Shown in pieces: positions 8,429 through 53,336 of a stretch of 64,000 nt of DNA (its first letter is position 1; the number at the start of each line of letters is the position of its first letter). Where the stretch lies: the NCBI RefSeq assembly GCF_900100165.1, contig NZ_FNEO01000001.1:682001-746000 (forward strand), given 5' to 3'. Source of the DNA: Flavobacterium glycines (GTDB lineage: Bacteria; Bacteroidota; Bacteroidia; Flavobacteriales; Flavobacteriaceae). The notes below the pieces were generated by a model, which was not told where the DNA came from, made no database searches, and saw only the letters and a list, made by a program, of their open reading frames with translations. The position numbers and the translations under genes were made by a program.

Positions 8429-8549
8429 AAACACAATTATTGTCCAATCTTTCAGTATTTGAATTCATTCTAAATTACATCTTTTTGCAAATAAAACAAA
8501 ACCAAACAAAAAGAACTACCGTAAATAAATTTTCAAAAACCCACCGATT

Positions 8550-8984
8550 ATGAAAACTTATAAAATCATTAAAAAAGGATTAGTACTTGTTGCCGGAATT
8601 GCATTGCTTTTCATTGTCATTTTACTTTTCCACATTATTACTGCTAAACCAGCCGTTTATGAAACACCTAACTTACAGGTAAGCCGAATTGATTTTAAAT
8701 CAAATATCGACTCAGCGCAGGCAAAACAAATTTGTACCGATTTGAGATCCATAAAAGGTTTAACCTCTGATTCTATCATTGTAAAAAGAAATGTTGTAGT
8801 CTATTTTCACAACAATAAAATTACCAACTCTGAGAAAGTTTTTAATGAACTCATGAGCAAAAGACCTTATGAAGCACATCGCTTCATCGTACCGGCTAAC
8901 CTGGCCAACAAAGAAGTTTGTCCAATGGATCAAAATAGTTTCAGTTATAAATTATCTAAAACCATAAATCAATTTTTTAATTAA
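8550..8984 (+). CDS. Membrane-anchored HMA-like small protein
   Basis: 144 residues. One N-terminal helix (about 12-32) precedes a domain with the order strand-helix-strand (SRIDF, DSAQAKQICTDLRSIKG, IIVKRNVVVYFHNNK), resembling a ferredoxin-like heavy-metal-associated fold but without the CxxC motif. A lone Cys lies near residue 121 (KEVCPMD). It falls between the DUF5777 barrel and the globin-like lipoprotein on the same strand. Function unknown. Confidence 0.7.
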   Translation: MKTYKIIKKGLVLVAGIALLFIVILLFHIITAKPAVYETPNLQVSRIDFKSNIDSAQAKQICTDLRSIKGLTSDSIIVKRNVVVYFHNNKITNSEKVFNELMSKRPYEAHRFIVPANLANKEVCPMDQNSFSYKLSKTINQFFN

Positions 8985-9002
8985 TCTTTAAATTCAATTA
9001 TC

Positions 9003-9584
9003 ATGAGAAATTTTTCAAAAATCACACTAAGTATGTTACTAATTGCATCAGTAACATTAACATCATGCAGCAAGGATGATGATCCGGAAGTAAAAGCATC
9101 TATTTACAGTCGTTTAGGTGGAACAACGATGGTTGCTGACCCGGATAATCCAGGTCAAATGATTGAACAGGGACGTTTAAGTTTCAGAAAAGTAGTAAAC
9201 TCAGCCATCGGACTCATTGTTGCCGACATTACCAATAATGCATCCGGAAATTTAAAAGCGCATTTTGCTCCGCTGCTGGCAGAAACAGGAAGCACTCAAA
9301 CAACAAGTATTGCTAAACTATCAGATAATTTAACTGATTTCTTTTCATACAATACAGGAGGAACAAACGCAGTAAATGCCTATTCCGGTTTGAGTATGGC
9401 TGCCGCACATAATCCGGCTGTTAATGCGCGTATGGGAGCAAAATCTACTAACGCCGATTATACTAAATTTGAAGGCTATGTGGGCGCTGCTGCAAATGCT
9501 AACGGTGTTGCCTCAAATACTGAACTTTATACGGACATTGTAGCTGTTTTAGAATCACTAAGAAGCACTATTGTTCAAATGTAA
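9003..9584 (+). CDS. Globin-like lipoprotein (truncated-hemoglobin resemblance)
   Basis: 193 residues. A lipoprotein signal ends at Cys22 (TLTSC). The mature part begins SIYSRLGG, the usual opening of truncated hemoglobins. The C-terminal part, with His136 in MAAAHNP, then ADYTKFEGYVGAAANANGV and a final VLESLRSTIVQ helix, follows the pattern around the proximal His of group 1 globins. The middle region is longer and atypical. If it is a heme globin it would be an exported, lipid-anchored one. Assignment is by visual pattern only; heme binding is not assured. Confidence 0.65.
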   Translation: MRNFSKITLSMLLIASVTLTSCSKDDDPEVKASIYSRLGGTTMVADPDNPGQMIEQGRLSFRKVVNSAIGLIVADITNNASGNLKAHFAPLLAETGSTQTTSIAKLSDNLTDFFSYNTGGTNAVNAYSGLSMAAAHNPAVNARMGAKSTNADYTKFEGYVGAAANANGVASNTELYTDIVAVLESLRSTIVQM

Positions 9585-40407: not shown

Positions 40408-42678
40408 TTAGTTCAAACTCGCTTTAAACATTCGCAATTCTTCCCAGCTGTATTTGTCACCAAATTTTTCTTTCATCGGAGTAAGAGACTCTTCTTTATA
40501 GAATTTAAAAGCTTCGGCTAATTCGTCAATTTTATCCTGAGGCAAGACTTCGCTTATCGAAATTCTTTTGCCCTGAATTAATTTTACCAAATGACCTTCA
40601 ATAGTTTGAACGGTTAGCTTGCGAATATCGGCAATATCTTCAATCGAATTTTTAGCTATCCACAAGTCAAAAGTTTCTTCAATAGTAGATTTTTTAGGTG
40701 CTGCCTTGTCTTTTTTCTTAGAAATATAGCGATTCAAATCGACTTCGTCTTCAATCAAATTCACATGCGTTTCTTTGAATTGATTTTGGATAGCTTCTTT
40801 TTTCCTCGAAAGATATTTTTTGATTTCATCCGAAGTTAGTTTTTCTTTCGAAATAGGCTCATTGGCAATAACCGTTTCAATTAAAAGTTTGGTTTTCATC
40901 AATCGCAAAACCGCTTTCGACTGCAATTCTTCTAATTCAGACAATTCTTCAAAATAGGCTTTTGCTTTTTTGAGCCGTTTAATTTCTTCAATTTTCCACA
41001 GAATTTCAAAAACCAAATTGTCCATCGGTTTGAAAAAATAATCAAAAGCTGCCTGAATTCTGGCAGAAACATGAATTAAATCTACCGTTTCATTGGCAAA
41101 AATTTTATTCAATTGGATGATGAATTTTTTGGATGGATCCAAAAGCAATTCGATACTTTCCAATTGTTTGGCTGCCCAAAGTGCATTTTTAGATTTTGCC
41201 GAACTTTCCGTTTTATCCGAATAACTGAATTTATGATTACGCCATTCCTGAGCCAAATCATACCAATCGAAACTGTTAATCAGATAATTATGGATAAAAT
41301 TCTTGGTTTCAAAATGCAGCGAATTTTTCAAAACTTCTTCCGAAGCTTTATTCTGTGCATATTCCATCACATCCTGATCGTTTGAAATACCGTTCATACG
41401 TAGCGGAGAAAGCAAAACTAAGCCTTCTAACGAACGCAAACGCGACAGAGCCACATAAGCCTGCCCAGGCATAAAAACCTGCGAAACATCAATCGCAGCC
41501 TTGTCAAAAGTTAATCCCTGACTTTTATGTACTGTAATGGCCCAGGCCAATTTGATAGGATAATGCACAAAAGTTCCCAAAACCTCCTCCTCGACTTCCT
41601 TAGTCAACGGATCGACTTTGTAACGGATATTTTGCCATTCGTAACGCTCTACTTCTATCGTTTTATTTTCTTCGGGAAAATGAACCAGAATTTCCTGACT
41701 GGAAAGTGATTTGATAATTCCCATTTTACCATTGAAATAGTTTTTTTCGAAATTCAAATCGTTTTTAACAAACATGATTTGCGCTCCCACTTTCAATTGC
41801 AAATTGTGTTCGACAGGAAATATTTTCTCAGGGAAATCACCAGTAATTTCAGGTTTATAGGTAATTAATTCTCCTTTTAAATCCTCCAAAGCCTGAGCAT
41901 TCATAGCATCGGCTTTGGCATTGTGAGTCGTTAAAGTGATATAACCTTTATTGGCTTTTAAATCAAAATCAGGTTTTACATATTGGTTCAAAACCTGAAC
42001 GTCTTCGGGAGTAATCTGGTTATTTCTCAGATTATTTAAAACCGAAATAAAACTAGTATCGGTCTGACGGAAAATCTTAGACAATTCAATATACAAAGGC
42101 GGACTTTGCTGAATAACATGCGAATGAAAAAAGAATTTTCCCTTGTAATAATTGCGTAAAGTACGCCATTCCTCATCCCGGATTACCGGTGGCAATTGCA
42201 ACAAATCACCAATAAACAAAACCTGAACACCACCAAAAGGAGTCGCTTTTTTCCGAACGGTTTGCATCATATAATCCATAGCATCCAGCAAATCGGCACG
42301 CAGCATACTTACCTCGTCAATCACCAGCAATTCCATATTTCGAATTACCGATTTTTTCACCCCATTCATCTTAAAATGCCTGCGCAAACTTTCCTTAGTT
42401 TCAAATTTTACCGTTTCCGAAAACTGTGATTCAGCAGTATGCGAAGGAATGAATCCGCTAAACGGCAATTGGAACATCGAATGAATCGTAACACCGCCGG
42501 CATTTAAAGCCGCAATACCCGTAGGTGCCACAACCACAGTATTTTTATGGGTTGTTTCAATTATTTCACGAAGCAAAGTGGTCTTACCCGTTCCTGCCTT
42601 ACCCGTCAAAAAAACCGAACGCTGGGTTTGATTGATGAATTGTAAAGTATATTTTGCGGCTTCGGATAAGGTTTGCAT
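40408..42678 (-). CDS. PIF1/RecD-like helicase with C-terminal HTH
   Basis: 756 residues. Walker A is LTGKAGTGKTTLLRE near 24-38, Walker B LLVIDEVSML; later motifs include FIGDLLQLPPV and AITVHKSQGLTFDKA (motif V/VI region, typical of SF1B). The C-terminal third is helical with a winged-helix-like segment (DLWIAKNSIEDIADIRKLTVQTIEGHLVKLIQG around 685-717). It is a DNA helicase of unknown specific role and lies just outside the lasso locus; 22 nt separate it from the ABC transporter gene on the same strand. Confidence 0.92.
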   Translation of the reverse strand: MQTLSEAAKYTLQFINQTQRSVFLTGKAGTGKTTLLREIIETTHKNTVVVAPTGIAALNAGGVTIHSMFQLPFSGFIPSHTAESQFSETVKFETKESLRRHFKMNGVKKSVIRNMELLVIDEVSMLRADLLDAMDYMMQTVRKKATPFGGVQVLFIGDLLQLPPVIRDEEWRTLRNYYKGKFFFHSHVIQQSPPLYIELSKIFRQTDTSFISVLNNLRNNQITPEDVQVLNQYVKPDFDLKANKGYITLTTHNAKADAMNAQALEDLKGELITYKPEITGDFPEKIFPVEHNLQLKVGAQIMFVKNDLNFEKNYFNGKMGIIKSLSSQEILVHFPEENKTIEVERYEWQNIRYKVDPLTKEVEEEVLGTFVHYPIKLAWAITVHKSQGLTFDKAAIDVSQVFMPGQAYVALSRLRSLEGLVLLSPLRMNGISNDQDVMEYAQNKASEEVLKNSLHFETKNFIHNYLINSFDWYDLAQEWRNHKFSYSDKTESSAKSKNALWAAKQLESIELLLDPSKKFIIQLNKIFANETVDLIHVSARIQAAFDYFFKPMDNLVFEILWKIEEIKRLKKAKAYFEELSELEELQSKAVLRLMKTKLLIETVIANEPISKEKLTSDEIKKYLSRKKEAIQNQFKETHVNLIEDEVDLNRYISKKKDKAAPKKSTIEETFDLWIAKNSIEDIADIRKLTVQTIEGHLVKLIQGKRISISEVLPQDKIDELAEAFKFYKEESLTPMKEKFGDKYSWEELRMFKASLN

Positions 42679-42700
42679 GTGACGTAAAGATTAAATACAA

Positions 42701-44473
42701 TTACAATTGGTCTTCAAACATTTCGCAAAAATAACTTTTCTGAGCAATTAAAGTATCAAAATCCCCTTTCTCAACAATACGTCCCTCTTTCATCACATAA
42801 ATAACATCGGCTTTTTTCAATTGAAACAATCGATGAGAAACTAAAATAATCATTTTTTCTTTCCCCCAATCTCTTAGCGAATTATACAATTCTCCTTCAG
42901 AAAAAGCATCTAAGGCGCTGGTAGGTTCGTCCATAACGACCAAATCGGCATCACGGTAAAACAATCGGGCTAAGGCTAGTTTTTGCCATTCGCCACCGCT
43001 TAATTGTTCACCCATCCAAAAAGTCCGTCCTAATTTTGTATCAAAACCATGTTTTAATTTATCAATGACAACCTTTGCACCACTATTTTCGGCGGCTCTT
43101 TTTAAGGCTTCTAAATCATTGGTTTCTTTAGCGCCTAAACTGATATTTTCGGCAACACTTAAAAAATATTTTTCAAAATCCTGAAAAAGGAAAACACTAT
43201 TTTCCCGGAATGTCTCTTTATCAATATTTTTTAAATCCAATCCATCAATAACAATACTTCCATTTTCATAATCATACAATTTCCCTAACAATTTTACCAA
43301 AGTAGATTTTCCCGAACCATTAGCACCAACAATGGCTATGATTTGTCCCTTTTCACAGGATAACGAAATGTCTTTAAGAATTTCTCTTTTGGTATTCGGA
43401 TAAGAAAAATGTAAATTATTGATTTCTAATTTCGAAGGTTTTACCGGAAAAGGAACAATGGATTCCTTAGAAATTCTTTCCGGAATATCAAGAAATTGAA
43501 AAAGATGATTAATGAACATTCGGTGTTGGAATAATTGCACCAAGGCTGTCAAAAAGCTTTTTGTTCCCGATTGTAATTTTTGGAAACCTTGTAAATAAAT
43601 CACAAAAAGTCCCGGTGTAATAAGTTGTTCCCAGGTATTTTGTGCCAAAGACAGAAAAATAAAACCTACCAGAACAATTTCACCCGCTTCAATAATGACA
43701 CTGTAAAAATTCTGCTTGTTTTGAATAGATTTTCGTTGCTTAAACAAATATTCCCTTAAAACACTGTAACGGGCAATAAATTCTTTTCCAAAACCAAAAA
43801 GACGTACTTCCTTAGCATAACTCAATCCCGTTAAAACCTGTTGTAAATAATTCGATTCGCGTTCTATTTTGGCCAACTTCGTTTCCTCATTAAAACTTTT
43901 TCGGGAAAAAAACCATTTAACTGCAAACAACGGCAGAGAAAGAACCACAATGATTACTGCATATTGCCAATAATAATAAGCCAGCATACTCGCAATCATC
44001 ACAACACTCGAAAATTGCATCAACAGATTACTGAAACCATTTAACAACTGAGCCGCTTTAAAAACCGCTTGTTGTTGCGCCAGATGTAAGGTATCGTGAT
44101 AGACCGGATTTTCATAATAGGAGAAATCAACTGAAATGGCTTTGTCCAATACACGTTTCGATAAATAATCACCTACTTTTTGTTGGTACAAACCATTTAC
44201 GTAAGTTGCTAATTGTGAACAAATGGAAGCAACTAATTGCAAAAGACAAAAACCAATAACCCAAAAAATAATTTCGTTAAAATTATGTCCTTTGGGAGTG
44301 GTAATAATATCAATAATTTCTTTGGTAATATAAAGTGTAGCAACCGGAACCACCGACTGAAATAAAACCAAAACAAAATAACTCAGAGCATTTCCGGGAG
44401 AAGCTTTGTAGATGATTTCTAAGATTTGAAGATAATCCTGAACGATTTTTTTGAATTGAAACTGTTTTTTCAA
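42701..44473 (-). CDS. ABC exporter of the lasso-peptide locus (D component)
   Basis: 590 residues: six-helix transmembrane domain (1-320) fused to an ATPase. Walker A is VGANGSGKSTLVKLLG, signature LSGGEWQKLALARLF, Walker B DLVVMDEPTSALD. There is no N-terminal C39 peptidase domain, consistent with lasso systems where leader removal is by B2. It should export the mature peptides and give self-immunity. It is 6 nt from cysC and transcribed away from the precursor array. Confidence 0.88.
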   Translation of the reverse strand: MKKQFQFKKIVQDYLQILEIIYKASPGNALSYFVLVLFQSVVPVATLYITKEIIDIITTPKGHNFNEIIFWVIGFCLLQLVASICSQLATYVNGLYQQKVGDYLSKRVLDKAISVDFSYYENPVYHDTLHLAQQQAVFKAAQLLNGFSNLLMQFSSVVMIASMLAYYYWQYAVIIVVLSLPLFAVKWFFSRKSFNEETKLAKIERESNYLQQVLTGLSYAKEVRLFGFGKEFIARYSVLREYLFKQRKSIQNKQNFYSVIIEAGEIVLVGFIFLSLAQNTWEQLITPGLFVIYLQGFQKLQSGTKSFLTALVQLFQHRMFINHLFQFLDIPERISKESIVPFPVKPSKLEINNLHFSYPNTKREILKDISLSCEKGQIIAIVGANGSGKSTLVKLLGKLYDYENGSIVIDGLDLKNIDKETFRENSVFLFQDFEKYFLSVAENISLGAKETNDLEALKRAAENSGAKVVIDKLKHGFDTKLGRTFWMGEQLSGGEWQKLALARLFYRDADLVVMDEPTSALDAFSEGELYNSLRDWGKEKMIILVSHRLFQLKKADVIYVMKEGRIVEKGDFDTLIAQKSYFCEMFEDQL

Positions 44474-44479
44474 AATGGA

Positions 44480-45100
44480 TTATGGCTTTAATTGAACTTT
44501 TGGTTGTAACTTATTTTCTAACAACCAACTAGTTATTATTTCTAATGAAGTTTCAATGCTTCTATCAGTAGTATCAACAATAATATCAGGATTTACGGGT
44601 ATTTCATACGGACTATTGATTCCAGTGAAGTCACTAATTTCTCCTTTTTGAGCTTTGGCGTACAAACCTTTAGCATCTCTTTGAATACAGGTTTCAAGTG
44701 GTGTAGCTATATAAACTTCGATATAATTTTCAGGACCTACAATGCTTTTAGCAGAAATTCTATCCTCTTCAAAAGGTGAAATAAAAGAACTGATAACCAC
44801 TACACCGGCATCGTTAAAAAGCCTGGCAACTTCAGCCACACGACGGATATTTTCCTTTCGCCCTTCTCTGCTAAAATCTAAATCACGGTTCAGATGCATG
44901 CGGGTATTATCACCATCCGTAATGTAAGAACGTATTTGCCTGTTGAAAAACCATTGATCTAATGCAGCAGCCAGAGTCGATTTTCCGGAGCCCGAAAAAC
45001 CACTAAACCAAACCGTAAAAGCGATATGCCCATTTAAATCCTCACGGTCTTTACGGGAAACGGAATAGTTTTGTTGAAACAAATAGTTTGTTACACTCAT
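44480..45100 (-). CDS. cysC: Adenylylsulfate (APS) kinase
   Basis: 206 residues. P-loop FSGFSGSGKST (32-42), GDNTRMHLNRDLDFS, ISPFEEDR and GLYAKAQKGEISDFTGINSP are CysC hallmarks. It phosphorylates APS to PAPS, the sulfate donor. No ATP sulfurylase or other sulfate-assimilation gene is nearby, so it is best read as donor supply for the sulfotransferase encoded at 47761. It forms an operon with the exporter. A minus-strand TAAATTTG box lies 20 nt upstream. Confidence 0.93.
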   Translation of the reverse strand: MSVTNYLFQQNYSVSRKDREDLNGHIAFTVWFSGFSGSGKSTLAAALDQWFFNRQIRSYITDGDNTRMHLNRDLDFSREGRKENIRRVAEVARLFNDAGVVVISSFISPFEEDRISAKSIVGPENYIEVYIATPLETCIQRDAKGLYAKAQKGEISDFTGINSPYEIPVNPDIIVDTTDRSIETSLEIITSWLLENKLQPKVQLKP

Positions 45101-45120
45101 ATTTGTAAATTATAAAGAGC

Positions 45121-45128
45121 CAAATTTA
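45121..45128 (-). promoter_or_regulatory. Putative -7 box TAAATTTG for the cysC-exporter operon
   Basis: CAAATTTA on the plus strand reads TAAATTTG on the minus strand, 20 nt before the cysC start. It is divergent from the first precursor promoter. Confidence 0.5.
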
Positions 45129-45197
45129 ATCTTTTAGCTGTAGTTTTAATAAAAAAACAAAGTTTTATTATCAAAGTGTTTTATTACAAAAAAATAC

Positions 45198-45205
45198 TAC
45201 TTTTG
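45198..45205 (+). promoter_or_regulatory. Putative -7 box TACTTTTG for precursor 1
   Basis: Matches TAnnTTTG, 36 nt before the ATG at 45242. The 5' UTR contains AAACCTAC (45218-45225), an element shared with precursors 4, 5 and 6. Confidence 0.55.
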
Positions 45206-45241
45206 TTTCAAATTTTTAAACCTACTAAATAAATAATTATC

Positions 45242-45346
45242 ATGGAAAAAGAAAAAAAACAATGGATTGCTCCTGTAGCAACTGAAATGGAAGTTAATAC
45301 CGGTGGTATGCCAAATACTTTTGAAGACGTTATCTTCTCTTCTTAG
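45242..45346 (+). CDS. Lasso precursor peptide 1 (34 aa)
   Basis: Leader MEKEKKQWIAPVATEMEVNT carries WIAP at 8-11, equivalent to the YxxP motif read by B1 proteins. The predicted core is GGMPNTFEDVIFSS (14 aa): Gly1 and Glu8 form the ring, with Asp9 adjacent. The core ends in Ser, the site used by lasso peptide kinases. A core starting one residue later (Gly22, Glu at 7, Thr at leader position -2) is an alternative. It is the first of seven related plus-strand genes, with its own promoter box and terminator. Confidence 0.85.
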   Translation: MEKEKKQWIAPVATEMEVNTGGMPNTFEDVIFSS

Positions 45347-45410
45347 TTGAAATATAAATTAAACCTATTTAATGGCTATTATTTTTTAATTGCTCATTAA
45401 ATAAAAAAAT

Positions 45411-45444
45411 TAAAGTCCGCTCGTAATAAAGCGGACTTTTTATT
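45411..45444 (+). terminator. Terminator after precursor 1
   Basis: AAAGTCCGCT (45412-45421) and AGCGGACTTT (45430-45439) form a 10-bp stem followed by TTTATTT. Confidence 0.8.
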
Positions 45445-45490
45445 TAAAAAAACATTATCATTTTTCTTACTAATATTTGAAAAATAATTT

Positions 45491-45498
45491 TAGTTTTG
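45491..45498 (+). promoter_or_regulatory. Putative -7 box TAGTTTTG for precursor 2
   Basis: Matches TAnnTTTG, 26 nt before the ATG at 45525. Confidence 0.5.
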
Positions 45499-45524
45499 CT
45501 TTAAATTATTAAAAAATAAAACTT

Positions 45525-45632
45525 ATGAATACAGAAAAAAAACAATGGATAACGCCTCAAGCTACTGAAATTGAGGTGAATGGTGGTGGTATTACCGATA
45601 TCTTTGAAAATGCTTTCTATCAAGTGTCATAA
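45525..45632 (+). CDS. Lasso precursor peptide 2 (35 aa)
   Basis: The leader MNTEKKQWITPQATEIEVNG belongs to a second leader type shared with copies 3 and 5. The core is GGITDIFENAFYQVS (15 aa) with Glu8 as ring acceptor and a C-terminal Ser. Aromatic residues Phe and Tyr in the tail could act as steric plugs. A terminator with a 15-bp stem follows. The stop is 5 nt before an ATG that opens into copy 3. Confidence 0.85.
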   Translation: MNTEKKQWITPQATEIEVNGGGITDIFENAFYQVS

Positions 45633-45637
45633 ATTTT

Positions 45638-45844
45638 ATGATTAAAAAAGCATTTTTTTGTACATCTAAAAAAAGTCTACTTTATCGAAAAGTAGACTTT
45701 TTTATTAATAATTTTAACTGTTTATCAAAAAAAATAAAGAGTGTAGAAAAGAAACAATGGATTACTCCTCAGGCTACTGAAATTGAAGTAAATGGCGGTA
45801 CAGATCTTGGTTATCAGGAATTAGATTATGGTACAATATCATAA
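45638..45844 (+). CDS. Lasso precursor-like ORF 3, normal start lost
   Basis: The C-terminal part reads EKKQWITPQATEIEVNG then core GTDLGYQELDYGTIS (15 aa, Glu8, final Ser), a good precursor. The expected ATG and 5' UTR are missing: compared with copy 5, about 34 nt including AAACCTAC and ATGAATACA are gone. The only in-frame ATG is 45638, giving a 68-residue product that would have to be read through the terminator hairpin of copy 2. It is either a decayed gene or uses a non-ATG start near 45740. Confidence 0.55.
   Translation: MIKKAFFCTSKKSLLYRKVDFFINNFNCLSKKIKSVEKKQWITPQATEIEVNGGTDLGYQELDYGTIS
45669..45703 (+). terminator. Terminator after precursor 2 (inside ORF 3)
   Basis: AAAAAAGTCTACTTT (45669-45683) pairs with AAAGTAGACTTTTTT (45689-45703), a 15-bp stem. 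Nearly the same hairpin follows precursor 4. Confidence 0.85.
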
Positions 45845-45869
45845 ATGTTCTTAAACTTAGATATTTTAT

Positions 45870-45904
45870 AAAAAAGTCGGATTTTAATAAAATTCGACTT
45901 TTTT
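45870..45904 (+). terminator. Terminator after ORF 3
   Basis: AAAAAAGTCGGATTTT pairs with AAAATTCGACTTTTTT with one imperfect position. It is present although ORF 3 lacks its start. Confidence 0.8.
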
Positions 45905-45951
45905 ATGCCTAAATAGTGACGTTTAACGATACTTTTAATAATTAAAAACAC

Positions 45952-45959
45952 TATTTTTG
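45952..45959 (+). promoter_or_regulatory. Putative -7 box TATTTTTG for precursor 4
   Basis: Matches TAnnTTTG, 34 nt before the ATG at 45994; AAACCTAC follows at 45971-45978. The region resembles that of precursor 1 closely. Confidence 0.55.
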
Positions 45960-45993
45960 TTTCATATTTTAAACCTACTAATAAATAATTATC

Positions 45994-46104
45994 ATGGAAA
46001 AAGAAAAAAAACAATGGATTGCTCCTGTAGCAACCGAAATTGAAATTAATGGTGGTCCAAATCCTACTATTTCAGGTGAGGATTCAGTTTATCATGTATC
46101 ATAA
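45994..46104 (+). CDS. Lasso precursor peptide 4 (36 aa)
   Basis: Leader MEKEKKQWIAPVATEIEING is of the copy 1 type. The core is GPNPTISGEDSVYHVS (16 aa). Here the ring acceptor would be Glu9 (or Asp10), giving a nine-residue ring unlike the eight-residue rings of the other copies. The C-terminal Ser is kept. Own promoter box upstream and terminator downstream. Confidence 0.85.
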   Translation: MEKEKKQWIAPVATEIEINGGPNPTISGEDSVYHVS

Positions 46105-46131
46105 ATTTTAGATAAAAAAAGTACATCTAGT

Positions 46132-46165
46132 AAAAAGTCTACTTTATCAAAAAGTAGACTTTTTT
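46132..46165 (+). terminator. Terminator after precursor 4
   Basis: AAAAAGTCTACTTT (46132-46145) pairs with AAAGTAGACTTTTT (46151-46164). It is a paralogue of the hairpin at 45669, showing that this junction was duplicated. Confidence 0.85.
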
Positions 46166-46232
46166 GTTACTAATTTTAACTGTTTGTCAAAAAACGAATT
46201 TAAATTTCTAAAACCTACAAAAAACAAAACTT

Positions 46233-46349
46233 ATGAATACAGAAAAAAAACAATGGATAACGCCTCAGGCTACTGAAATTGAAGTGAATGGTGGTGTAGA
46301 TCCTGGTATATACGAAGTAACCAATGGCACCATAACAGCTCTTTCTTAA
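46233..46349 (+). CDS. Lasso precursor peptide 5 (38 aa)
   Basis: Leader MNTEKKQWITPQATEIEVNG is identical to that of copy 2. The core is GVDPGIYEVTNGTITALS (18 aa), with Glu8 and C-terminal Ser. AAACCTAC (46211-46218) precedes the ATG by 14 nt. No clear TAnnTTTG box or terminator was found for this copy, so it may rely on readthrough from copy 4. Confidence 0.85.
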   Translation: MNTEKKQWITPQATEIEVNGGVDPGIYEVTNGTITALS

Positions 46350-46455
46350 ATATTTGGAATTTTAAAAAATAAAATTACTTTCCATAAAAGTGGTCTTAAT
46401 TCATTCCTAAAAGCACTATTTACAAATAATTTCTAATTTTTTTACAAAAAAATAT

Positions 46456-46463
46456 TACTTTTG
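46456..46463 (+). promoter_or_regulatory. Putative -7 box TACTTTTG for precursor 6
   Basis: Matches TAnnTTTG, 35 nt before the ATG at 46499; AAACCTGC follows at 46477-46484. Confidence 0.55.
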
Positions 46464-46498
46464 ATTCAAATTTTTTAAACCTGCATAAAACAAATCTT

Positions 46499-46624
46499 AT
46501 GAATACAGAAAAAAAAGAATGGATTACTCCTTTAGCAACTGAAATTAATGTGAATGGAGGGACTGATTTTGGTAACAATGAAAGTTATGTTACTGGTTTT
46601 GGTAATCACGGAAGTATTTCTTAA
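46499..46624 (+). CDS. Lasso precursor peptide 6 (41 aa)
   Basis: Leader MNTEKKEWITPLATEINVNG diverges slightly (Glu7, Leu12, Asn17). The core is 21 residues: it starts GTDFGNNESY with Glu8 and ends GFGNHGSIS. The tail is Gly-rich and shares GNHG with copy 7. C-terminal Ser is kept. Terminator downstream at 46663. Confidence 0.82.
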   Translation: MNTEKKEWITPLATEINVNGGTDFGNNESYVTGFGNHGSIS

Positions 46625-46662
46625 AAAAAGTAAATACTATTTTAGTTACTCTAATTTAATCA

Positions 46663-46693
46663 AAAGTCCACTTTTATGAAAGTGGCTTTTTTT
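46663..46693 (+). terminator. Terminator after precursor 6
   Basis: AAAAGTCCACTTT and AAAGTGGCTTTT pair around TATG, followed by TTTT. Confidence 0.75.
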
Positions 46694-46796
46694 ATATGAC
46701 TTAATGGCTTATTTACAACATTTAAGTAATGAGAATGGAGTAATATCGAGTTTTGAAAAAATTTATTATAAAAGTAGATACTTTTTATAAATAAAA

Positions 46797-46804
46797 TATC
46801 TTTG
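46797..46804 (+). promoter_or_regulatory. Putative -7 box TATCTTTG for precursor 7
   Basis: Perfect TAnnTTTG match, 38 nt before the ATG at 46843. The 5' UTR lacks the AAACCTRC element of copies 1, 4, 5 and 6. Confidence 0.6.
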
Positions 46805-46842
46805 CGTCTGATTTTTATTATTAATCTAATTACACAAAAGTT

Positions 46843-46983
46843 ATGGAAACAAAAAGAAAATGGGTAAATCCCGAAGCAACAGAAATGGAAATTAATGGTG
46901 GAACTGTCCCAGGACAAAATGAAGCCTGGATTGGAGGAGGAGGAAACCACGGAGTAGGATTACCTTCAACGAGTGTTTCCTAA
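46843..46983 (+). CDS. Lasso precursor peptide 7 (46 aa), most divergent
   Basis: Leader METKRKWVNPEATEMEING is one residue shorter but keeps WxxP and ATExEING. The 27-residue core begins GTVPGQNEAW (Glu8) and ends LPSTSVS. The middle is GGGG followed by NHG. At 27 residues it is long for a lasso core, with a predicted 19-residue loop-plus-tail. C-terminal Ser is kept. Weak inverted repeat (47029-47058) follows. Confidence 0.8.
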   Translation: METKRKWVNPEATEMEINGGTVPGQNEAWIGGGGNHGVGLPSTSVS

Positions 46984-47028
46984 ATAATCATTTTGATTAT
47001 CTTACAAAATCTACCACAAACAAATTAA

Positions 47029-47058
47029 TAGTTCACTTACTCCCCAAAAGTGAACTTA
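47029..47058. terminator. Hairpin between precursor 7 and the B2 gene
   Basis: AGTTCACTT and AAGTGAACT form a 9-bp stem around ACTCCCCAA-type loop sequence. No T run follows on the plus strand; it may serve either direction of the convergent genes. Confidence 0.5.
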
Positions 47059-47067
47059 CACAAAATA

Positions 47068-47496
47068 TTAAACAAGAAAGTAATTTTTCTCATTGCAGTT
47101 ACCGCAAATGAATTTACCGTTTACTTTTACCCAGGAATGCCCCTCTTTCTTGTATTTATTTTTTTCAATACCTACAAAATAATCAAAAGGAATTTGGTAT
47201 TGCAACAATAAATACACCGCCTGCCAGGATTGATGGCGACAAACATTTTTCCAGAGAATGTATTTATTGACAATGTATATAGCCAGTGCAATATCTTTTG
47301 CAATTACTGTTTTTTCTGCTGTTAATATTACTTTTGTATCCTGATTTTTACAAATTTGCTCTGTAAAAGCTTTTCTGGATTTTATGGCTAATAACAAATT
47401 TCTATAAATAGCAAGCCAGAACACCATCAAAATTAATTTTCGCTGGTGCCGGCTTAAAATAAATGTGTTTTTAAGCTTTTTAAGAAAAAAATTCAT
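47068..47496 (-). CDS. Lasso leader peptidase (B2, transglutaminase-like)
   Basis: About 142 residues from the ATG at 47496 (MNFFLKKLKN); an ATG at 47514 is also in frame and both overlap the B1 stop. The catalytic region has Cys in VCRHQSWQAVYLLLQ and His in GHSWVKVNG, as in McjB C-terminal-domain proteases. The third triad residue, normally Asp, is not evident (VNGK and GNCNE contain Asn). B2 cuts the leader so the cyclase can close the ring. It is coupled to B1. Confidence 0.88.
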   Translation of the reverse strand: MNFFLKKLKNTFILSRHQRKLILMVFWLAIYRNLLLAIKSRKAFTEQICKNQDTKVILTAEKTVIAKDIALAIYIVNKYILWKNVCRHQSWQAVYLLLQYQIPFDYFVGIEKNKYKKEGHSWVKVNGKFICGNCNEKNYFLV

Positions 47497-47758
47497 TAAT
47501 GTACTCTTTAGCAATTAAATCGGCTAATACAGCCTTTAATTGAACTTCACAGAGTTCCTGCTCTACTTCGTATTCTGCCATTAATTGTGCTACAATTTCG
47601 TTATAAACTAATCCTTCAGAAATATATTGAATAATGGAAGTGTAAGTGGTATTCAAACTAATGTATTTGTTATCTTCGATAGCATACAAAACACCCTCTT
47701 CTTCTAAAGGGGTAAACAATACTTTCTCCGTATTTAAAAGGTATTTTTGATTATCCAT
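47480..47758 (-). CDS. Lasso leader-binding protein (B1, PqqD-like RRE)
   Basis: 92 residues with the PqqD fold order: EEEGVLYAIEDNKYISLNTTYTSIIQYI followed by helices ending LIAKEYINEFFS. Split B1 and B2 proteins are the hallmark of lasso systems outside the proteobacterial McjB fusion. It should bind the leader via the WxxP motif and hand it to B2. It is 2 nt downstream of the sulfotransferase gene. Confidence 0.9.
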   Translation of the reverse strand: MDNQKYLLNTEKVLFTPLEEEGVLYAIEDNKYISLNTTYTSIIQYISEGLVYNEIVAQLMAEYEVEQELCEVQLKAVLADLIAKEYINEFFS

Positions 47759-47760
47759 AA

Positions 47761-48621
47761 TTATTGTATTTGATTTATAACTTCTTCCCAGTACCCCAAT
47801 CGTTTCATCATCGATTCGTTTACTGTCATGATTTTTTGTATTTGTTCTTTAGTTAATTCTTTTTTCCAACGTCCCGTTTCTCCCTTAAAAAAGAAAGCCG
47901 AAGACGGAATTGCTTTTTCTTTAAAGCCTTTGTTTTCTTCCTGTTGCTTTAATTTTTTAAAATCTGTTGCTTCAATAGCCTTACGAATCGCATCATCAGA
48001 ATAATTCAATTGCATTTTTTCTACGGCTGTTTTAAAAGTTGCAAAAGCATTCATTTTCATATCTTCATAGCGAATAACATGAACCGGAACATCTTTTTGC
48101 TGCATCCAGCTCGAAGCGTGCATGGCCCAAGTTCCCATCAGTTGGTAATATTGCTGACCTGCTTTCCCTTTCTTAACAAAAGCACCTTCTTCACAATTCA
48201 TGTATTTATCAATCGTTTCATCAATACTCAATCCCGTGTGATTAGCCAATGAAAGTACTACATCCAATGGATTTCGAACTAAATACAAAGCTAAACGGCT
48301 ACCTTTGTTTGGAATGAGAGGCAATCCATCCCATCGGGAAAAAGTATAAGCATCGTGTATTTTTACAAATAATTCTTTTTGAGCGAGCTGTGCTTTGTAT
48401 GAAAAAGCCGTTTTTCTTAAAGATTCAAACTCTCTTGGTCTTAAATCATCGGTAGATAAGTCTAAAATACTCTCGATATATTCTTTAGCCGAAAAGATAC
48501 CATCTGTTTCCATTTTATTGATATCAATTTCGCCCTGATTCAACAAAGCGGTCAAAAAACTTCGAAACCAGGTATTTCCTGACTTTGGATAAGATGCTAG
48601 CCAAATGATATTATTTTTCAT
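47761..48621 (-). CDS. PAPS-dependent sulfotransferase of the lasso locus
   Basis: 286 residues, full-length for the Sulfotransfer_1 family. The 5'-phosphosulfate loop is LASYPKSGNTWFRSFL (8-23) and the 3'-phosphate motif is LYLVRNPLDVVLSLANHTG near 109-127. A C-terminal KGETGRWKKELTKEQ completes the family pattern. It transfers sulfate from PAPS to a hydroxyl. Position between the kinase and B1 genes and the nearby cysC suggest the precursor peptide is the acceptor. Which residue (Tyr, Ser or Thr) is unknown. Confidence 0.92.
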   Translation of the reverse strand: MKNNIIWLASYPKSGNTWFRSFLTALLNQGEIDINKMETDGIFSAKEYIESILDLSTDDLRPREFESLRKTAFSYKAQLAQKELFVKIHDAYTFSRWDGLPLIPNKGSRLALYLVRNPLDVVLSLANHTGLSIDETIDKYMNCEEGAFVKKGKAGQQYYQLMGTWAMHASSWMQQKDVPVHVIRYEDMKMNAFATFKTAVEKMQLNYSDDAIRKAIEATDFKKLKQQEENKGFKEKAIPSSAFFFKGETGRWKKELTKEQIQKIMTVNESMMKRLGYWEEVINQIQ

Positions 48622-49525
48622 CGGCTTCTATAATTTGATTGATAATAGCATCGGCAAAACTATCAAAACTCGGTTTATCTTTAGGCCTTACAGCTGTCCA
48701 AAAAGGGACTTTTTGCGAAATAATACTCAGGGTTTTAAACTGTAACAACTGCTTGTTCATGCCGTGAATCCAGTTATTTCGATAAATATTATCACCTAAA
48801 CGTTTCATTCCATCAGTAGATTTTAGTCTTTCGATTTGGATGCTATCTCCTTTCATTTCCAGAAAAATAATTCCTTTCACTTTTTGAGAAGTAGCCACAA
48901 AATCATCATGAAAAGCAATACCAAACTTATTGATTTCAGCACGCAATTGCTTTCCATCAGAAAGTGCATATACCTGTTGATTATTCATGGTATTTTCCCA
49001 GGCTCTTAAAACGGGATAAGAAGCAATGGCAACACATTGATTGTCTTCAACCATAATTAAAGCAGTATCATCGGTAAAATAAGTATAGCCTTTTTCTTTT
49101 AATTTTAAAGCCGTTGTTGATTTACCCGTTCTGGAAGGAGCCGCAAAAAGCCATAATCCATCTTTTTTATCCAATACTCCTGAAACATGAAAAGGAATTT
49201 GGTCCTTTTGAAAAAGGATTGCAGCAATACAATTGGAATAAAAAAACAACAGAATACTATCCCAATCTTCACAAAGCGGCTCAATGACTACTTTATTTCC
49301 ATCAGTAACAAAATAACGGGCAATATCAGGCATTTGATAAAAAAACTCATTCTCATTGAATTGTGTAAATGGTTTTTTTACAGTTGGTTCTTTCTTGAAA
49401 TCAGGTACTACAGTACCTAAAACCACTTCAAAATCAGGAATTACCTCTTCTTGATTCATCACAAATGAGGGAAGCAGAATGGTTGAAGTACAGCGTAAAT
49501 TAAAAACCTTGTAATTATATGGCAT
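48611..49525 (-). CDS. HPr-kinase-like lasso peptide kinase
   Basis: 304 residues. The HPr kinase-like core has PFHVSGV (His113), P-loop AAPSRTGKSTTALKL (128-142) and TDDTAL (Asp152-Asp153). HPr is not its likely target, as the regulatory N-terminal domain of HprK is absent. Homologues in lasso clusters such as paeninodin phosphorylate the side chain of the C-terminal Ser. All seven precursors here end in Ser. It overlaps the sulfotransferase start by 11 nt and leads the B-side operon. Confidence 0.88.
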   Translation of the reverse strand: MPYNYKVFNLRCTSTILLPSFVMNQEEVIPDFEVVLGTVVPDFKKEPTVKKPFTQFNENEFFYQMPDIARYFVTDGNKVVIEPLCEDWDSILLFFYSNCIAAILFQKDQIPFHVSGVLDKKDGLWLFAAPSRTGKSTTALKLKEKGYTYFTDDTALIMVEDNQCVAIASYPVLRAWENTMNNQQVYALSDGKQLRAEINKFGIAFHDDFVATSQKVKGIIFLEMKGDSIQIERLKSTDGMKRLGDNIYRNNWIHGMNKQLLQFKTLSIISQKVPFWTAVRPKDKPSFDSFADAIINQIIEADEK

Positions 49526-49559
49526 TAGCTCACTTTATTTTAATATTTTATTAACTTCG

Positions 49560-49567
49560 CAAATGTA
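49560..49567 (-). promoter_or_regulatory. Putative -7 box TACATTTG for the kinase-ST-B1-B2 operon
   Basis: CAAATGTA on the plus strand gives TACATTTG on the minus strand, about 35 nt before the kinase start. It lies in the 57-nt divergent gap shared with the cyclase gene. Confidence 0.55.
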
Positions 49568-49582
49568 AAAAAATACAGTGAA

Positions 49583-51388
49583 ATGAAAGGATTTTTTGGA
49601 ATTTTAAACTTGAATAATGGAAATTTTCAAGAAGTAACAAATAAGTATCTCAATACTAAATCACTAAAGAATGGAAATACTTCATTACTAACCGATCAAA
49701 TCCTATTAGAAGATTTTGCTCAACCAATTTCTAAAAACAATAAATTTCCTGATTTACAATATGTGGGTTGGTGCCGATTAGATAATATTGAAGAATTACA
49801 ATTGCAACTGCAACTTTCTGATGATGTTAAAGAAAAAGAAGTAATAGTAGCTGCCTATCAAAAATGGGGAAAAGATTGTGTCAAACATTTCATTGGCGAT
49901 TTTAGTTTTGCAATTTGGGATGAAATGAAAAAATCGCTTTTTTTAGCTAAGGATCAAATGGGTATCCGTCCGCTTTTTTATATGGAGGAGGATGAACTAC
50001 TCTATTTTGGAACAACAATTCCGTCAATTAAAGCAGCTTTACTCAAAAAACCGGCGTTAAATGAAAACTATATCGCTAAAGAACTTCGCAATTATCCTCA
50101 GGAAGTAGAAGACACTTTTTTCAAGAACATTAAAAGACTCAAACCGGCTCATTCTATTGTTATAAGTCCCGGAGAAAAGATAGAAGAAATTCGTTATTGG
50201 GAACTCAACACAGTAGATTTAAGTTATTGTAAAAACAATGAAGATTATTATGCCCTTTTAAGAAAAACACTTGAAACAGCTATAAAATCCAGAATCAGAG
50301 GTAAAAAAAATGTAGGATGCCAACTTTCGGGCGGAATGGATTCCTCAGCCATTGCCGTACTTTTATCTCGATTAATGGATAAAAAACAGCTGCATACTTA
50401 TTCGTTTGTTCTGGATGAAACCACAAGAGCTTACTCTGATAACGGTATTGATGAACAAGGCACTCAGGAAGAAATTATTAACTATGCGAATTTAATTCGT
50501 GAAAATCATCATCCAATTACCGGTTTTCATTATAAAGATGTATTTGAAGAAATTCATAAACATAATGAGGTAATGGGTGGCGTTGCCAATAGCGATTGTA
50601 TCTGGCAGGATAGTTTATACAAAATAGCTGCAGAACAAAACCAGATAGAAGTGATTTTTAGTGGTTTTCCTGGTGATGAAGGCATTTCTCAAAATGGAAA
50701 TAATTATTTTTACGATTACCTGAACGATTTTAATATTAAAGGTTTATTTCAATTTCTACTTGATTTTAGACGGGGAGCCATTCTAAAAACCGTACATTAT
50801 TACAAAGCAAAAAAAGTAAAAACAACTGCCTTCGATTTTTCTGAAATACAGGAAAAAAGAAATTTATTAAATCCCAAATCTTCATTTTACAAGGAATTAA
50901 AAGACATTTCTTTTGCTTTTAATCCCAGTTTCAAAAACTGGCAAAAACAACAAATTTGCAGAGCACATACTAGTTTACGAACCGAGTCAGAAGGAGCCTA
51001 TGCTAATCAATATAATATAGAAACTGTATATCCCTTGGCTGATATTCGATTATTGGAAATCATGTACAGTTTACCTACGGAATTGTTTAAACCCAAACCC
51101 TATTCCAGAGCCTTATTTAGAAATTTAGCCATTGGAATCTTACCGGAAAAAGTACGACTACAGCCTAAAAGAAGCGGGGCTAAAACCCTTGCTTTTGCGG
51201 ATTACTGGATTTTTACAAAAGCAGAAGAATTAAAAATTTATAACATTAAAAACCATACGGGTTTAATGATTTCCGAAGAAGAATACCTGCAAAAAGAAGC
51301 CGAAAATGAATTGATGAAAATGAAACGATTAAATAATTTAAAAGAAATGGATTATTTGATAAGTTTGAATTTACCCGATATTTCTTAA
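49583..51388 (+). CDS. Lasso cyclase (asparagine-synthetase-like, C component)
   Basis: 601 residues. The N-terminal glutaminase-like domain starts MKGFFGILNL and lacks the catalytic Cys2 of true asparagine synthetases, as in lasso cyclases. The synthetase domain has the ATP motif LSGGMDSSAIAVLLSRL (248-264). It would adenylate the ring Glu and join it to the N-terminal amine of the core. It reads divergently from the kinase operon and 53 nt before the nucleotidyltransferase gene. Confidence 0.93.
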   Translation: MKGFFGILNLNNGNFQEVTNKYLNTKSLKNGNTSLLTDQILLEDFAQPISKNNKFPDLQYVGWCRLDNIEELQLQLQLSDDVKEKEVIVAAYQKWGKDCVKHFIGDFSFAIWDEMKKSLFLAKDQMGIRPLFYMEEDELLYFGTTIPSIKAALLKKPALNENYIAKELRNYPQEVEDTFFKNIKRLKPAHSIVISPGEKIEEIRYWELNTVDLSYCKNNEDYYALLRKTLETAIKSRIRGKKNVGCQLSGGMDSSAIAVLLSRLMDKKQLHTYSFVLDETTRAYSDNGIDEQGTQEEIINYANLIRENHHPITGFHYKDVFEEIHKHNEVMGGVANSDCIWQDSLYKIAAEQNQIEVIFSGFPGDEGISQNGNNYFYDYLNDFNIKGLFQFLLDFRRGAILKTVHYYKAKKVKTTAFDFSEIQEKRNLLNPKSSFYKELKDISFAFNPSFKNWQKQQICRAHTSLRTESEGAYANQYNIETVYPLADIRLLEIMYSLPTELFKPKPYSRALFRNLAIGILPEKVRLQPKRSGAKTLAFADYWIFTKAEELKIYNIKNHTGLMISEEEYLQKEAENELMKMKRLNNLKEMDYLISLNLPDIS

Positions 51389-51441
51389 AAAAATTGCACT
51401 AAAAAAACTTAATTTAATTATTCCTCAACTAATTCTTCTCA

Positions 51442-52695
51442 ATGATTACTATTTCAGACATCAAAAATAAATATGGAATTTCTATGGCATTAGTTATACT
51501 ATGCACTAGAGTATACTTTAAAACGGCTGAAATAGACGATTTAAACACTTTTATTGCGTCCAATGATATAGAATGGTCAGATGTATTCAAAACATGTCGT
51601 AAACACCGAATCAGATCGTTTATCTATCGGGTACTATTAAAAATAGAAATTCCTGAAAAAATAAGATTAGAAATAAACATAGAACTAAAAAGAAATTCTG
51701 TTCAAAATATAAAACTTGCTTTAGAAACGGAAAAATTGATTAATATACTAAATCAGCAGGGAATAAAAATACTGCCTTACAAAGGAGCAGCATATTCAAA
51801 ACAATTTTTTGGAAATATTAATATGCGAGAATCATCTGATATTGATTTGATACTAAATCCAGATGATCTATCTAAAATATTTCCAATAATGAAGGAACTA
51901 GGATTTCAATCCTATCAATTAGAATACTACCATAGAATTGGACATAAAAAATTTATAAAGACACATAAGGATTTTAATTTTGATAAGTTTTTAGGCGAAA
52001 AAATAGAATTTCACGTGGAATTTCATTTTAATATTATTAATAAAAATTTACACGTTAATAAAAAATTAAATTATTTTGACTGGAATAATCCCCAAGAAAA
52101 TCAACTAATTAATAAAAAAATCCATTTTATAAATCCAATAGAACATTTTAAGGCTGTATGTATGCATCATCTGCTTCAGGATCAACTTGGACACCTTAAA
52201 ACCATAATTGATTTAACACAAGGAATGAATTGGGTCGAAAACTACCAAATTCAAAACAACAATGAGAATAATAACTCAGAAACGTTCACGCTCCTAAATA
52301 AAAATCTCAATACCAATATTGTAAAAGCAACAATAAATCAACTACTAGCAACACAGTTTAAAAATAAATTAGTTGAGAAAAAAAAGATCGATATACTAAT
52401 TCATTTTATCTTAAGCAATAACTATCAAAAAATGCGAAATAATAAATTCCCAATTTGGGATGCTATTAAATATCATTATTCTATTATTACAAGAACTAAA
52501 GAATTTTATATTACATTAGAAGATAAGTTCTTCTATTTATATAATCAAATACTTAGCACCTTTAAACCACAAGCAGTTGATTATATGATTATTAAAATAA
52601 ATAAACCATTCCACTTTTTATATTACATAGCCAGACCAATAAGGTTACTATTTCTACCTCAAGATCCACAATCAGCTACTAAAAATAAGATATAA
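51442..52695 (+). CDS. Nucleotidyltransferase-like tailoring protein of the lasso locus
   Basis: 417 residues. The segment ILPYKGAAYSKQFFGNINMR followed by SSDIDLIL (Asp133, Asp135) matches the uncharacterised nucleotidyltransferase family PF14907 often found in kinase-containing lasso clusters. A homologue from the pseudomycoidin cluster acts on the phosphorylated C-terminus. I infer that here it extends or decorates the phosphoserine made by the kinase. The A+T-rich codon use is more extreme than in neighbours, consistent with a transferred accessory gene. Confidence 0.85.
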   Translation: MITISDIKNKYGISMALVILCTRVYFKTAEIDDLNTFIASNDIEWSDVFKTCRKHRIRSFIYRVLLKIEIPEKIRLEINIELKRNSVQNIKLALETEKLINILNQQGIKILPYKGAAYSKQFFGNINMRESSDIDLILNPDDLSKIFPIMKELGFQSYQLEYYHRIGHKKFIKTHKDFNFDKFLGEKIEFHVEFHFNIINKNLHVNKKLNYFDWNNPQENQLINKKIHFINPIEHFKAVCMHHLLQDQLGHLKTIIDLTQGMNWVENYQIQNNNENNNSETFTLLNKNLNTNIVKATINQLLATQFKNKLVEKKKIDILIHFILSNNYQKMRNNKFPIWDAIKYHYSIITRTKEFYITLEDKFFYLYNQILSTFKPQAVDYMIIKINKPFHFLYYIARPIRLLFLPQDPQSATKNKI

Positions 52696-52714
52696 GTGAA
52701 TTATTTTTGAAACA

Positions 52715-52752
52715 AAAAAAGCCTTCAATTCTTAAGAATTGAAGGCTTTTTT
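52715..52752. terminator. Bidirectional terminator, perfect 38-nt palindrome
   Basis: A 19-nt arm AAAAAAGCCTTCAATTCTT is followed directly by its complement. It ends the plus-strand lasso genes and the minus-strand OmpH gene and marks the right edge of the lasso locus. Confidence 0.9.
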
Positions 52753-52769: not shown

Positions 52770-53336
52770 CTATTTCTTTTCTTCCGCTTTAGTTTCTGAT
52801 TTTTCAGAAGCTTTATACTTCTCATTCAAGGCTTTAATGATTTCTTTAGTGATATCATATTTATCTTCTGCATATAAAATTGAAGCAGCATCACCTGTTC
52901 CATAGATATACGCATATCCTTTTTCCTTGCCGTAATCCTTAATAAATTTTTTAACTCCCTTTATAAGAGTATCCATTTCAGCACCGCTTGATTGCTGTAA
53001 TTGTTGTGCTAAAGCTTGTTGGGCATAACCTAATTGTTGCTCTCTTTTTTGCAATTCAGCTCCTCTTTTTTGAGCCCATTCCTGACCATTAGCCTGAGCC
53101 TGACTTTGGAAATTAGCAGCATCCTGCTTAAAACGATTAATCTCGGCTTCTAATTGTCTTCCTTTTTCTTCTGATTGTGCTTTATATTTTGCCTCAAGGT
53201 CTTTCGCTTCTGTATATTCCTTCATTAATTCCGAAGTATCTACATAAGCTGTTTTCATTTCTTTGACTTCGGCAGTTTTTTCGTTGCAAGCAAAAACTGA
53301 AATAGAAATTGCGATAATTAATAATAATTTCTTCAT
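52770..53336 (-). CDS. OmpH/Skp-like periplasmic chaperone (lipoprotein)
   Basis: 188 residues. A lipoprotein signal ends at Cys17 (ISVFAC). The mature part contains the Skp pattern VDTSELMKEYTEAKDLEAKY, then a long coiled coil rich in Gln, Glu and Lys (about 50-120), and a globular YAYIYGTGDAASILYAEDKYDIT region. It should help outer-membrane protein assembly. The Lys/Glu tail is low complexity. Confidence 0.9.
   Translation of the reverse strand: MKKLLLIIAISISVFACNEKTAEVKEMKTAYVDTSELMKEYTEAKDLEAKYKAQSEEKGRQLEAEINRFKQDAANFQSQAQANGQEWAQKRGAELQKREQQLGYAQQALAQQLQQSSGAEMDTLIKGVKKFIKDYGKEKGYAYIYGTGDAASILYAEDKYDITKEIIKALNEKYKASEKSETKAEEKK

Follow-up and report, generated by a model that had tools for sequence, protein, structure and literature searches.

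A lasso-peptide island in Flavobacterium glycines with seven precursor genes, a PAPS-type sulfotransferase gene and its own APS kinase gene

The stretch analysed here (the window) comprises 64,000 nucleotides of Flavobacterium glycines (NCBI RefSeq assembly GCF_900100165.1, contig NZ_FNEO01000001.1, positions 682,001 to 746,000 of the forward strand). By its gene content, the region around 42701-52695 of the window is a lasso-peptide cluster, in which one set of maturation genes encloses an array of seven small precursor genes. The same interval holds four tailoring genes that the initial annotation did not mention, for an adenosine 5'-phosphosulfate (APS) kinase, a sulfotransferase of the type using 3'-phosphoadenosine 5'-phosphosulfate (PAPS), an HprK-like kinase and an NTP_transf_5 protein. 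The more unusual part of the locus is this equipment for sulfation and phosphorylation, not the precursor number, and on our reading the products of the locus are lasso peptides bearing phosphate and, likely, sulfate. Loci used for comparison carry L numbers.

Gene content of the island

The features are listed below with coordinates, strand and the evidence for each. TAnnTTTG is taken by us to be the Bacteroidota -7 box; RRE stands for the leader-binding recognition element.

42679-52714: lasso island of about 10.0 kb, flanked by the helicase gene (40408-42678) and, on the other side, by the Skp-like gene's terminator; delimited by alignment of the flanks to the empty site L119
42701-44473, minus strand: D, ABC exporter without C39 domain; PF00664 and PF00005 above cut-off
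44480-45100, minus strand: APS kinase, predicted PAPS maker; PF01583 and TIGR00455 above cut-off
45242-45346, plus strand: precursor 1, core GGMPNTFEDVIFSS; TAnnTTTG at 45198
45525-45632, plus strand: precursor 2, core GGITDIFENAFYQVS; TAnnTTTG at 45491
45740-45844, plus strand: precursor 3, core GTDLGYQELDYGTIS; aligned place without start codon, likely silent, with ATG 45638 as an alternative start
45994-46104, plus strand: precursor 4, core GPNPTISGEDSVYHVS, Glu9; TAnnTTTG at 45952
46233-46349, plus strand: precursor 5, core GVDPGIYEVTNGTITALS; TAnnTTTG box not found
46499-46624, plus strand: precursor 6, core GTDFGNNESYVTGFGNHGSIS; TAnnTTTG at 46456
46843-46983, plus strand: precursor 7, core GTVPGQNEAWIGGGGNHGVGLPSTSVS; TAnnTTTG at 46797
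47068-47514, minus strand: B2, leader protease; NF033537 40.6 bits (cut-off 33)
47480-47758, minus strand: B1, leader-binding RRE; PF05402 above cut-off, TbiB1/TfuB1 matches in the PDB, NF033536 below cut-off
47761-48621, minus strand: PAPS-type sulfotransferase; PF00685 88.5 bits (cut-off 22), PDB matches, motif conservation
48611-49525, minus strand: HprK-like kinase, C-terminal Ser as predicted phosphorylation target; HprK_rel_B below cut-off (E 1.3e-6), motif residues, PEPCK-like fold
49583-51388, plus strand: C, lasso cyclase with Lys, not Cys, as residue 2; PF00733 above cut-off, NF033535 245.6 bits (cut-off 525)
51442-52695, plus strand: NTP_transf_5 protein, resembling PsmN in family name only; PF14907 116 bits (cut-off 31.2)

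The initial annotation had described a full lasso toolkit, with B1, B2, a cyclase without Cys2 and an exporter without C39 domain, and the profile searches confirm it. It had also named beforehand, as the check that could overturn this assignment, whether B1, B2 and the cyclase group with lasso enzymes, and the searches group all three. B1 matches PqqD as well as the solved lasso RREs TbiB1 and TfuB1, and B2 scores above the lasso cut-off. The cyclase is asparagine-synthase-like and has NF033535 as its best NCBIfam match, though below the cut-off. In the exporter, ABC_membrane and ABC_tran were found above their Pfam cut-offs and no C39 peptidase match. A defence-family search of the locus returned generic ATPase matches of the exporter only.

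The precursor array

The seven plus-strand open reading frames (ORFs) between 45242 and 46983 are confirmed. Each encodes a leader with WxxP, followed by Asn-x and then the core, and each core starts with Gly and ends with Ser. The ring acid lies within positions 7-9 in 7/7 cores, as Glu8 in six and as Glu9 in that of gene 4. Position -2 is Asn in 7/7 precursors and not Thr. Thr(-2) is usual in lasso leaders without strictly defining them, and Ile and Val cases are in print. A profile search of the whole genome gave seven precursor matches, all inside the array. The sole other match to a loose pattern in the 64-kb window (8340-8462) was judged to be chance.

The count of seven precursors served by one maturation set needs qualifying because copy 3 has no start: the seven ORFs with distinct cores stand, and six of them look intact. 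Gene 3 has no ATG, GTG or TTG at the aligned start, and compared to gene 5 about 36 bp are missing, including the promoter region and the ATG. The only in-frame start upstream is ATG 45638, which precedes the hairpin lying after gene 2. Judged from these features, precursor 3 is likely silent.

A TAnnTTTG box lies within 80 nt upstream of 5/6 intact precursors; first-order random sequences average 0.42/6 and never reached five in 2000 trials. A sigma-70 promoter scan gave no excess (50 versus 47.3 in shuffles). On visual inspection, a U-rich run lies at or behind the end of the hairpins that follow genes 1, 2, 3, 4 and 6, and the hairpins of genes 5 and 7 are poor.

Seven is the largest precursor number among the clusters compared. 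Mongoliitalea lutea (L019) has five (L019:5432-9024), with Tyr in all and a final Phe instead of Ser in one, and Emticicia (L020) has four precursor ORFs with three different cores, the duplicate being counted once.

Precursor relatives and the Asn(-2) leader

A precursor profile search yielded 98 proteins with 98 distinct cores, including six of the seven in the window. Mean pairwise identity among them is 78% in a 13-residue leader block, 11% in core residues 2-7 and 8% in the four residues before the last. Asn(-2) is found in 98/98, Gly1 in 96/98 and a last Ser in 94/98. The search was seeded with the window leader, which accounts for part of the Asn(-2) count and of the high leader identity. 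The first acidic residue, taken as the first one found at 8, 9, 7 or 10, is Glu8 in 74, Glu9 in 13, Glu7 in 8, Glu10 in 2 and Asp9 in 1. Matches to the pattern that looked fortuitous on inspection were discarded (e.g., in L010, L012, L013, L017, L099 and L111). The core of L018 (Glu7), missed by one precursor pattern, was added from an earlier pattern search, and the pattern gave nothing in L100 and L101, among others.

According to a paper of 2023, every precursor published earlier than its own Ile(-2) case has Thr(-2) (PMC10368454). A fixed leader followed by 98 different cores amounts to a natural library of what such B1/B2/cyclase sets accept, and it spans acidic ring residues at 7, 8 or 9 (10 in two aligned cores).

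Insertion site and distribution

The suggestion that the locus is a discrete module was borne out: the helicase gene and the Skp-like gene (52770-53336, minus strand) occur together without the cluster in 21 of the 23 other congeners with a helicase match, a sample without L142, which is from another family, and without L143, a second piece of G410. At the empty site L119 the helicase is 95% identical and 111 bp separate the flanking genes. The flanks align at this site, so that relative to L119 the cluster forms a clean insert, about 10.0 kb long (42679-52714). The perfect palindrome that had been proposed as the edge of the module (52715-52752) belongs to the Skp-like gene as its terminator and lies outside the lasso module, because it is retained at the empty site.

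Both flanks are common to the window, L005, L008 and L098. In these loci the island neighbours of the PF14907 gene are 63-89% identical to those of the window, whereas the PF14907 protein itself (51442-52695) shares only 41-47% identity with the corresponding proteins of L005, L008 and L098. Exporter matches below 150 bits were left out of the neighbourhood comparison.

Closely related cyclases were found in 3/398 congeners at E 1e-60 (own genome included); at E 1e-120 they were found in 3/395 genomes of the phylum sample and in 10/390 of the family of G892. The cyclase was used for this census because the B2 family model, which had been tried, matched only 4/397 family genomes, two of them above the cut-off.

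These data also bear on whether the products are lasso peptides at all. They could instead be unthreaded, branched-cyclic macrolactams, or the cluster could be unproductive, since threading cannot be read from a sequence, the cyclase is under its lasso cut-off, position -2 is Asn and not Thr, and one of seven precursors has decayed. However, B2 is above the lasso cut-off, B1 matches lasso RREs, six precursors are intact and four related genomes retain the cluster at the same site, and we consider this explanation highly improbable.

Sulfotransferase and kinase

The sulfotransferase carries a Sulfotransfer_1 domain and matches SULT1B1, Teg12, Teg14 and StaL in the PDB. Its YPKSGNTW motif, H89, R116 and S124, which we take to be the PAPS loop, the catalytic His and the PAPS-binding Arg and Ser, are each at least 95% conserved in 24 aligned sulfotransferases. 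The roles assigned to these positions agree with a published account (PMC6637879).

The gene overlaps that of the kinase and sits between kinase and B1. Of 27 sulfotransferase ORFs, 25 follow a kinase gene immediately, at no more than 120 nt and in most cases with an overlap, and both others are in L103. The pairs of L076, L077 and L079 belong to Acidobacteria and Alphaproteobacteria loci, so the gene pair reaches beyond Bacteroidota.

In the kinase, H113, K135 and D152 are present in 28/28 aligned kinases and D153 in 89%. The predicted model (mean predicted local distance difference test score 93.9) has its best structure matches in PEPCK (E 1.7e-8, query TM score 0.57); HprK was not among the best 50 structure matches listed, and by sequence HprK in the PDB is matched weakly (E 0.025). 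HprK and PEPCK have a common fold. For lasso kinases a His-Lys-Asp-Asp set is reported (PMC9266682), which the four aligned residues fit. With this HprK-type kinase and a C-terminal Ser in 7/7 cores, the predicted products resemble the paeninodin type.

Two further arrangements were seen in other genomes. Between cyclase and PF14907 gene, L008 (a Flavobacterium metagenome-assembled genome) has at 11806-12988 genes for another sulfotransferase, of the PF03567 family, and for an Asp/Asn beta-hydroxylase (PF05118). Three Lunatimonas genomes (L099, L100 and L101, with L010, L012 and L013) have a second lasso locus, comprising a kinase, a sulfotransferase, B1, B2 and a different cyclase, separate from the window-related cyclase.

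APS kinase and PAPS supply

The APS kinase of the cluster matches solved APS kinases at E 7.5e-48 and is the only PF01583 match in the genome; E. coli, included as a control, showed an APS kinase too. CysN, CysD and CysH are encoded about 670 kb off on the same contig, where no CysC was found. CysH scores 250.4 bits against TIGR02055, a model of APS reductases (cut-off 235.3), and also passes two general phosphoadenylyl-sulfate reductase models, but not TIGR02057. With CysN/CysD, a CysH that fits the APS-reductase model and no CysC found, sulfate assimilation is not predicted to need PAPS, and a role of the cluster's APS kinase in assimilation is unlikely here.

The sulfotransferase occurs in 16 of 24 genomes with related cyclases, in one of them truncated at a contig end. 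An APS kinase is present in 15 of these 16 compared to 3/8 genomes without a match or with a broken gene (Fisher p 0.007, which like all co-occurrence values given here is uncorrected for kinship). It lies near lasso genes in the window, L008, L019, L022, L026, L098 and L103; L021 has one near lasso genes on a 4.2-kb contig, on which no sulfotransferase is visible. The broken gene of L005 (F. kayseriense, 8434-9042) has a frame that stops at 201 residues from the ATG and not at 286, and by eye its PAPS loop is altered and the catalytic His changed to Gln. In that genome no match to an APS kinase was obtained, and the single core found is without Tyr. A related core, P0247, has Tyr where the L005 core has Phe.

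It could be argued that lasso enzymes and kinase are simply paeninodin-like and that the sulfotransferase and APS kinase serve another substrate, such as a surface glycan or a small molecule, being there by chance or common regulation. The sulfotransferase superfamily has many substrates, and APS kinases are also present in congeners that lack the cluster (25/150 congeners have one, own included, and 3/398 the cyclase). Against this, the sulfotransferase gene is embedded between kinase and B1 and overlaps the former, and the pairing recurs in 25/27 cases, also in the Acidobacteria and Alphaproteobacteria loci. We regard such a separate function as quite improbable.

Sulfate acceptor and proposed pathway

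Tyr occurs in 61/98 precursor relatives and in five of the seven window cores, two being without it. Within the clade it is found in 16/23 unique cores from ten loci of sulfotransferase-bearing genomes and in 0/8 cores from seven loci without the sulfotransferase or with a broken gene, the core of L099 entering both counts. The enrichment has a Fisher p of 0.0008 by core and 0.01 by locus, with closely related rows. This makes Tyr an enriched candidate acceptor, not a rule.

The enrichment also argues against a sulfotransferase acting on the C-terminal cap only, whereby kinase and PF14907 protein would assemble a phospho-hexose at the final Ser, the sugar would be sulfated and the core would be irrelevant. 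This idea draws on the hypervariable cores with the last Ser as near-constant hydroxyl (94/98), on the coupling of sulfotransferase and kinase genes (25/27), on PF14907 being found in 23/24 genomes and on PsmN, which is reported to install a hexose on phosphorylated Ser (PMC8498205, PMC9266682). However, loci without sulfotransferase have the kinase and PF14907 genes likewise, and besides the Tyr counts this makes a cap-only role unlikely.

On the evidence of genes, motifs, co-occurrence and the empty site, it is probable that the island is a lasso production line which matures precursors with one leader and varied cores and likely sulfates them with PAPS from its own APS kinase. Every chemical step in the following scheme is a prediction. 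B1 would bind the WxxP leader. The HprK-like kinase would phosphorylate the C-terminal Ser present in all seven cores, and the sulfotransferase would move sulfate from PAPS onto a hydroxyl of the tail, most likely of a core Tyr if present, else of Ser/Thr or of a group built on the last Ser. B2 would cleave after Asn-x and the cyclase would link Gly1 with Glu8 or Glu9. The PF14907 protein may put a hexose on the phosphate, as reported for PsmN, and D would export the product.

Several observations weigh against this scheme. The locus is a set of genes without a known product, and both cyclase and B1 are under the NCBI lasso-specific cut-offs (NF033535, NF033536). Both L098 cores are without Tyr, though L098 has sulfotransferase and APS kinase, and at distant loci Tyr is found in 1/6 cores with sulfotransferase (1/4 at the others). 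Tyr as obligatory sulfation site was thus rejected, because the L098 cores and 5/6 distant sulfotransferase-locus cores have none. Three genomes have an APS kinase without a sulfotransferase match; with these and the 25/150 congeners, the APS kinase alone is no marker of the system. Proximity of an APS kinase to lasso genes, with 10 kb as the limit (6/16 versus 1/8), is weak and not convincing as a test, and a proximity p of 0.057 rests on other counts (7/16 versus 0/7) and is not relied on. Lastly, the co-occurrence counts are uncorrected for kinship.

A wider view is that of a combinatorial sulfo-lasso system, in which one enzyme set with its own PAPS supply and an Asn(-2) code would convert precursors of one leader and diversifying cores into phosphorylated and sulfated lassos, the first sulfated ones, with the gene pair present across several phyla. 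We see the chances of this as evenly balanced.

Comparison with known systems

Literature listings and a term look-up in the parts consulted of two reviews of 2022 and 2026 (PMC9266682, PMC13352647) gave no sulfated lasso peptide, which does not establish their absence from print because most subscription journals lay outside the search.

The nearest described relatives are the paeninodin and pseudomycoidin clusters of Bacillota (PadeK, PsmK, PsmN), which likewise have B1/B2/C/D, an HprK-type kinase, a C-terminal Ser and a nucleotidyltransferase of the NTP_transf_5 type. In contrast to these, the island has an in-cluster APS kinase, seven precursors, Asn(-2) and a Bacteroidota host. Its cores have Glu as ring acid, whereas Asp is described for ruminal Firmicutes cores (PMC7533575). 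The Algoriphagus and Cecembia lasso clusters (L006, L007, L015, L017, L023, L024) share a related cyclase, kinase, B1, B2, exporter, PF14907 and Ser-ending cores, but have no in-cluster sulfotransferase or APS kinase, cores without Tyr and one or two precursors.

The bsf cluster of Bradymonas sediminis (BsfK) is also a kinase-bearing lasso cluster with a leader deviating from Thr(-2) (PMC10368454). It has Ile(-2) and phosphorylation at Ser3, whereas in the island position -2 is Asn and the C-terminal Ser is constant, and the consulted part of its description mentions no sulfotransferase. RaxX-RaxST of Xanthomonas combines a ribosomal peptide, a PAPS-using sulfotransferase and an exporter in one cluster (PMC6637879). 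There, no lasso enzymes are present, PAPS comes from housekeeping genes and not, as is likely here, from an in-cluster APS kinase, and some island cores are without the Tyr that sulfation of the RaxX type would require in every substrate.

Sulfotransferase genes in lasso clusters, some of them of Firmicutes, were noted in 2014 (PMC4289311) and in a review of 2021 (PMC8498205), in the parts consulted without a function. A sulfotransferase in a lasso cluster is thus already in print, and we group the island as a variant with the phosphorylated lasso clusters. With a host whose only detected APS kinase lies in the cluster, the role of the sulfotransferase, left unassigned in 2014 (PMC4289311), would become directly testable.

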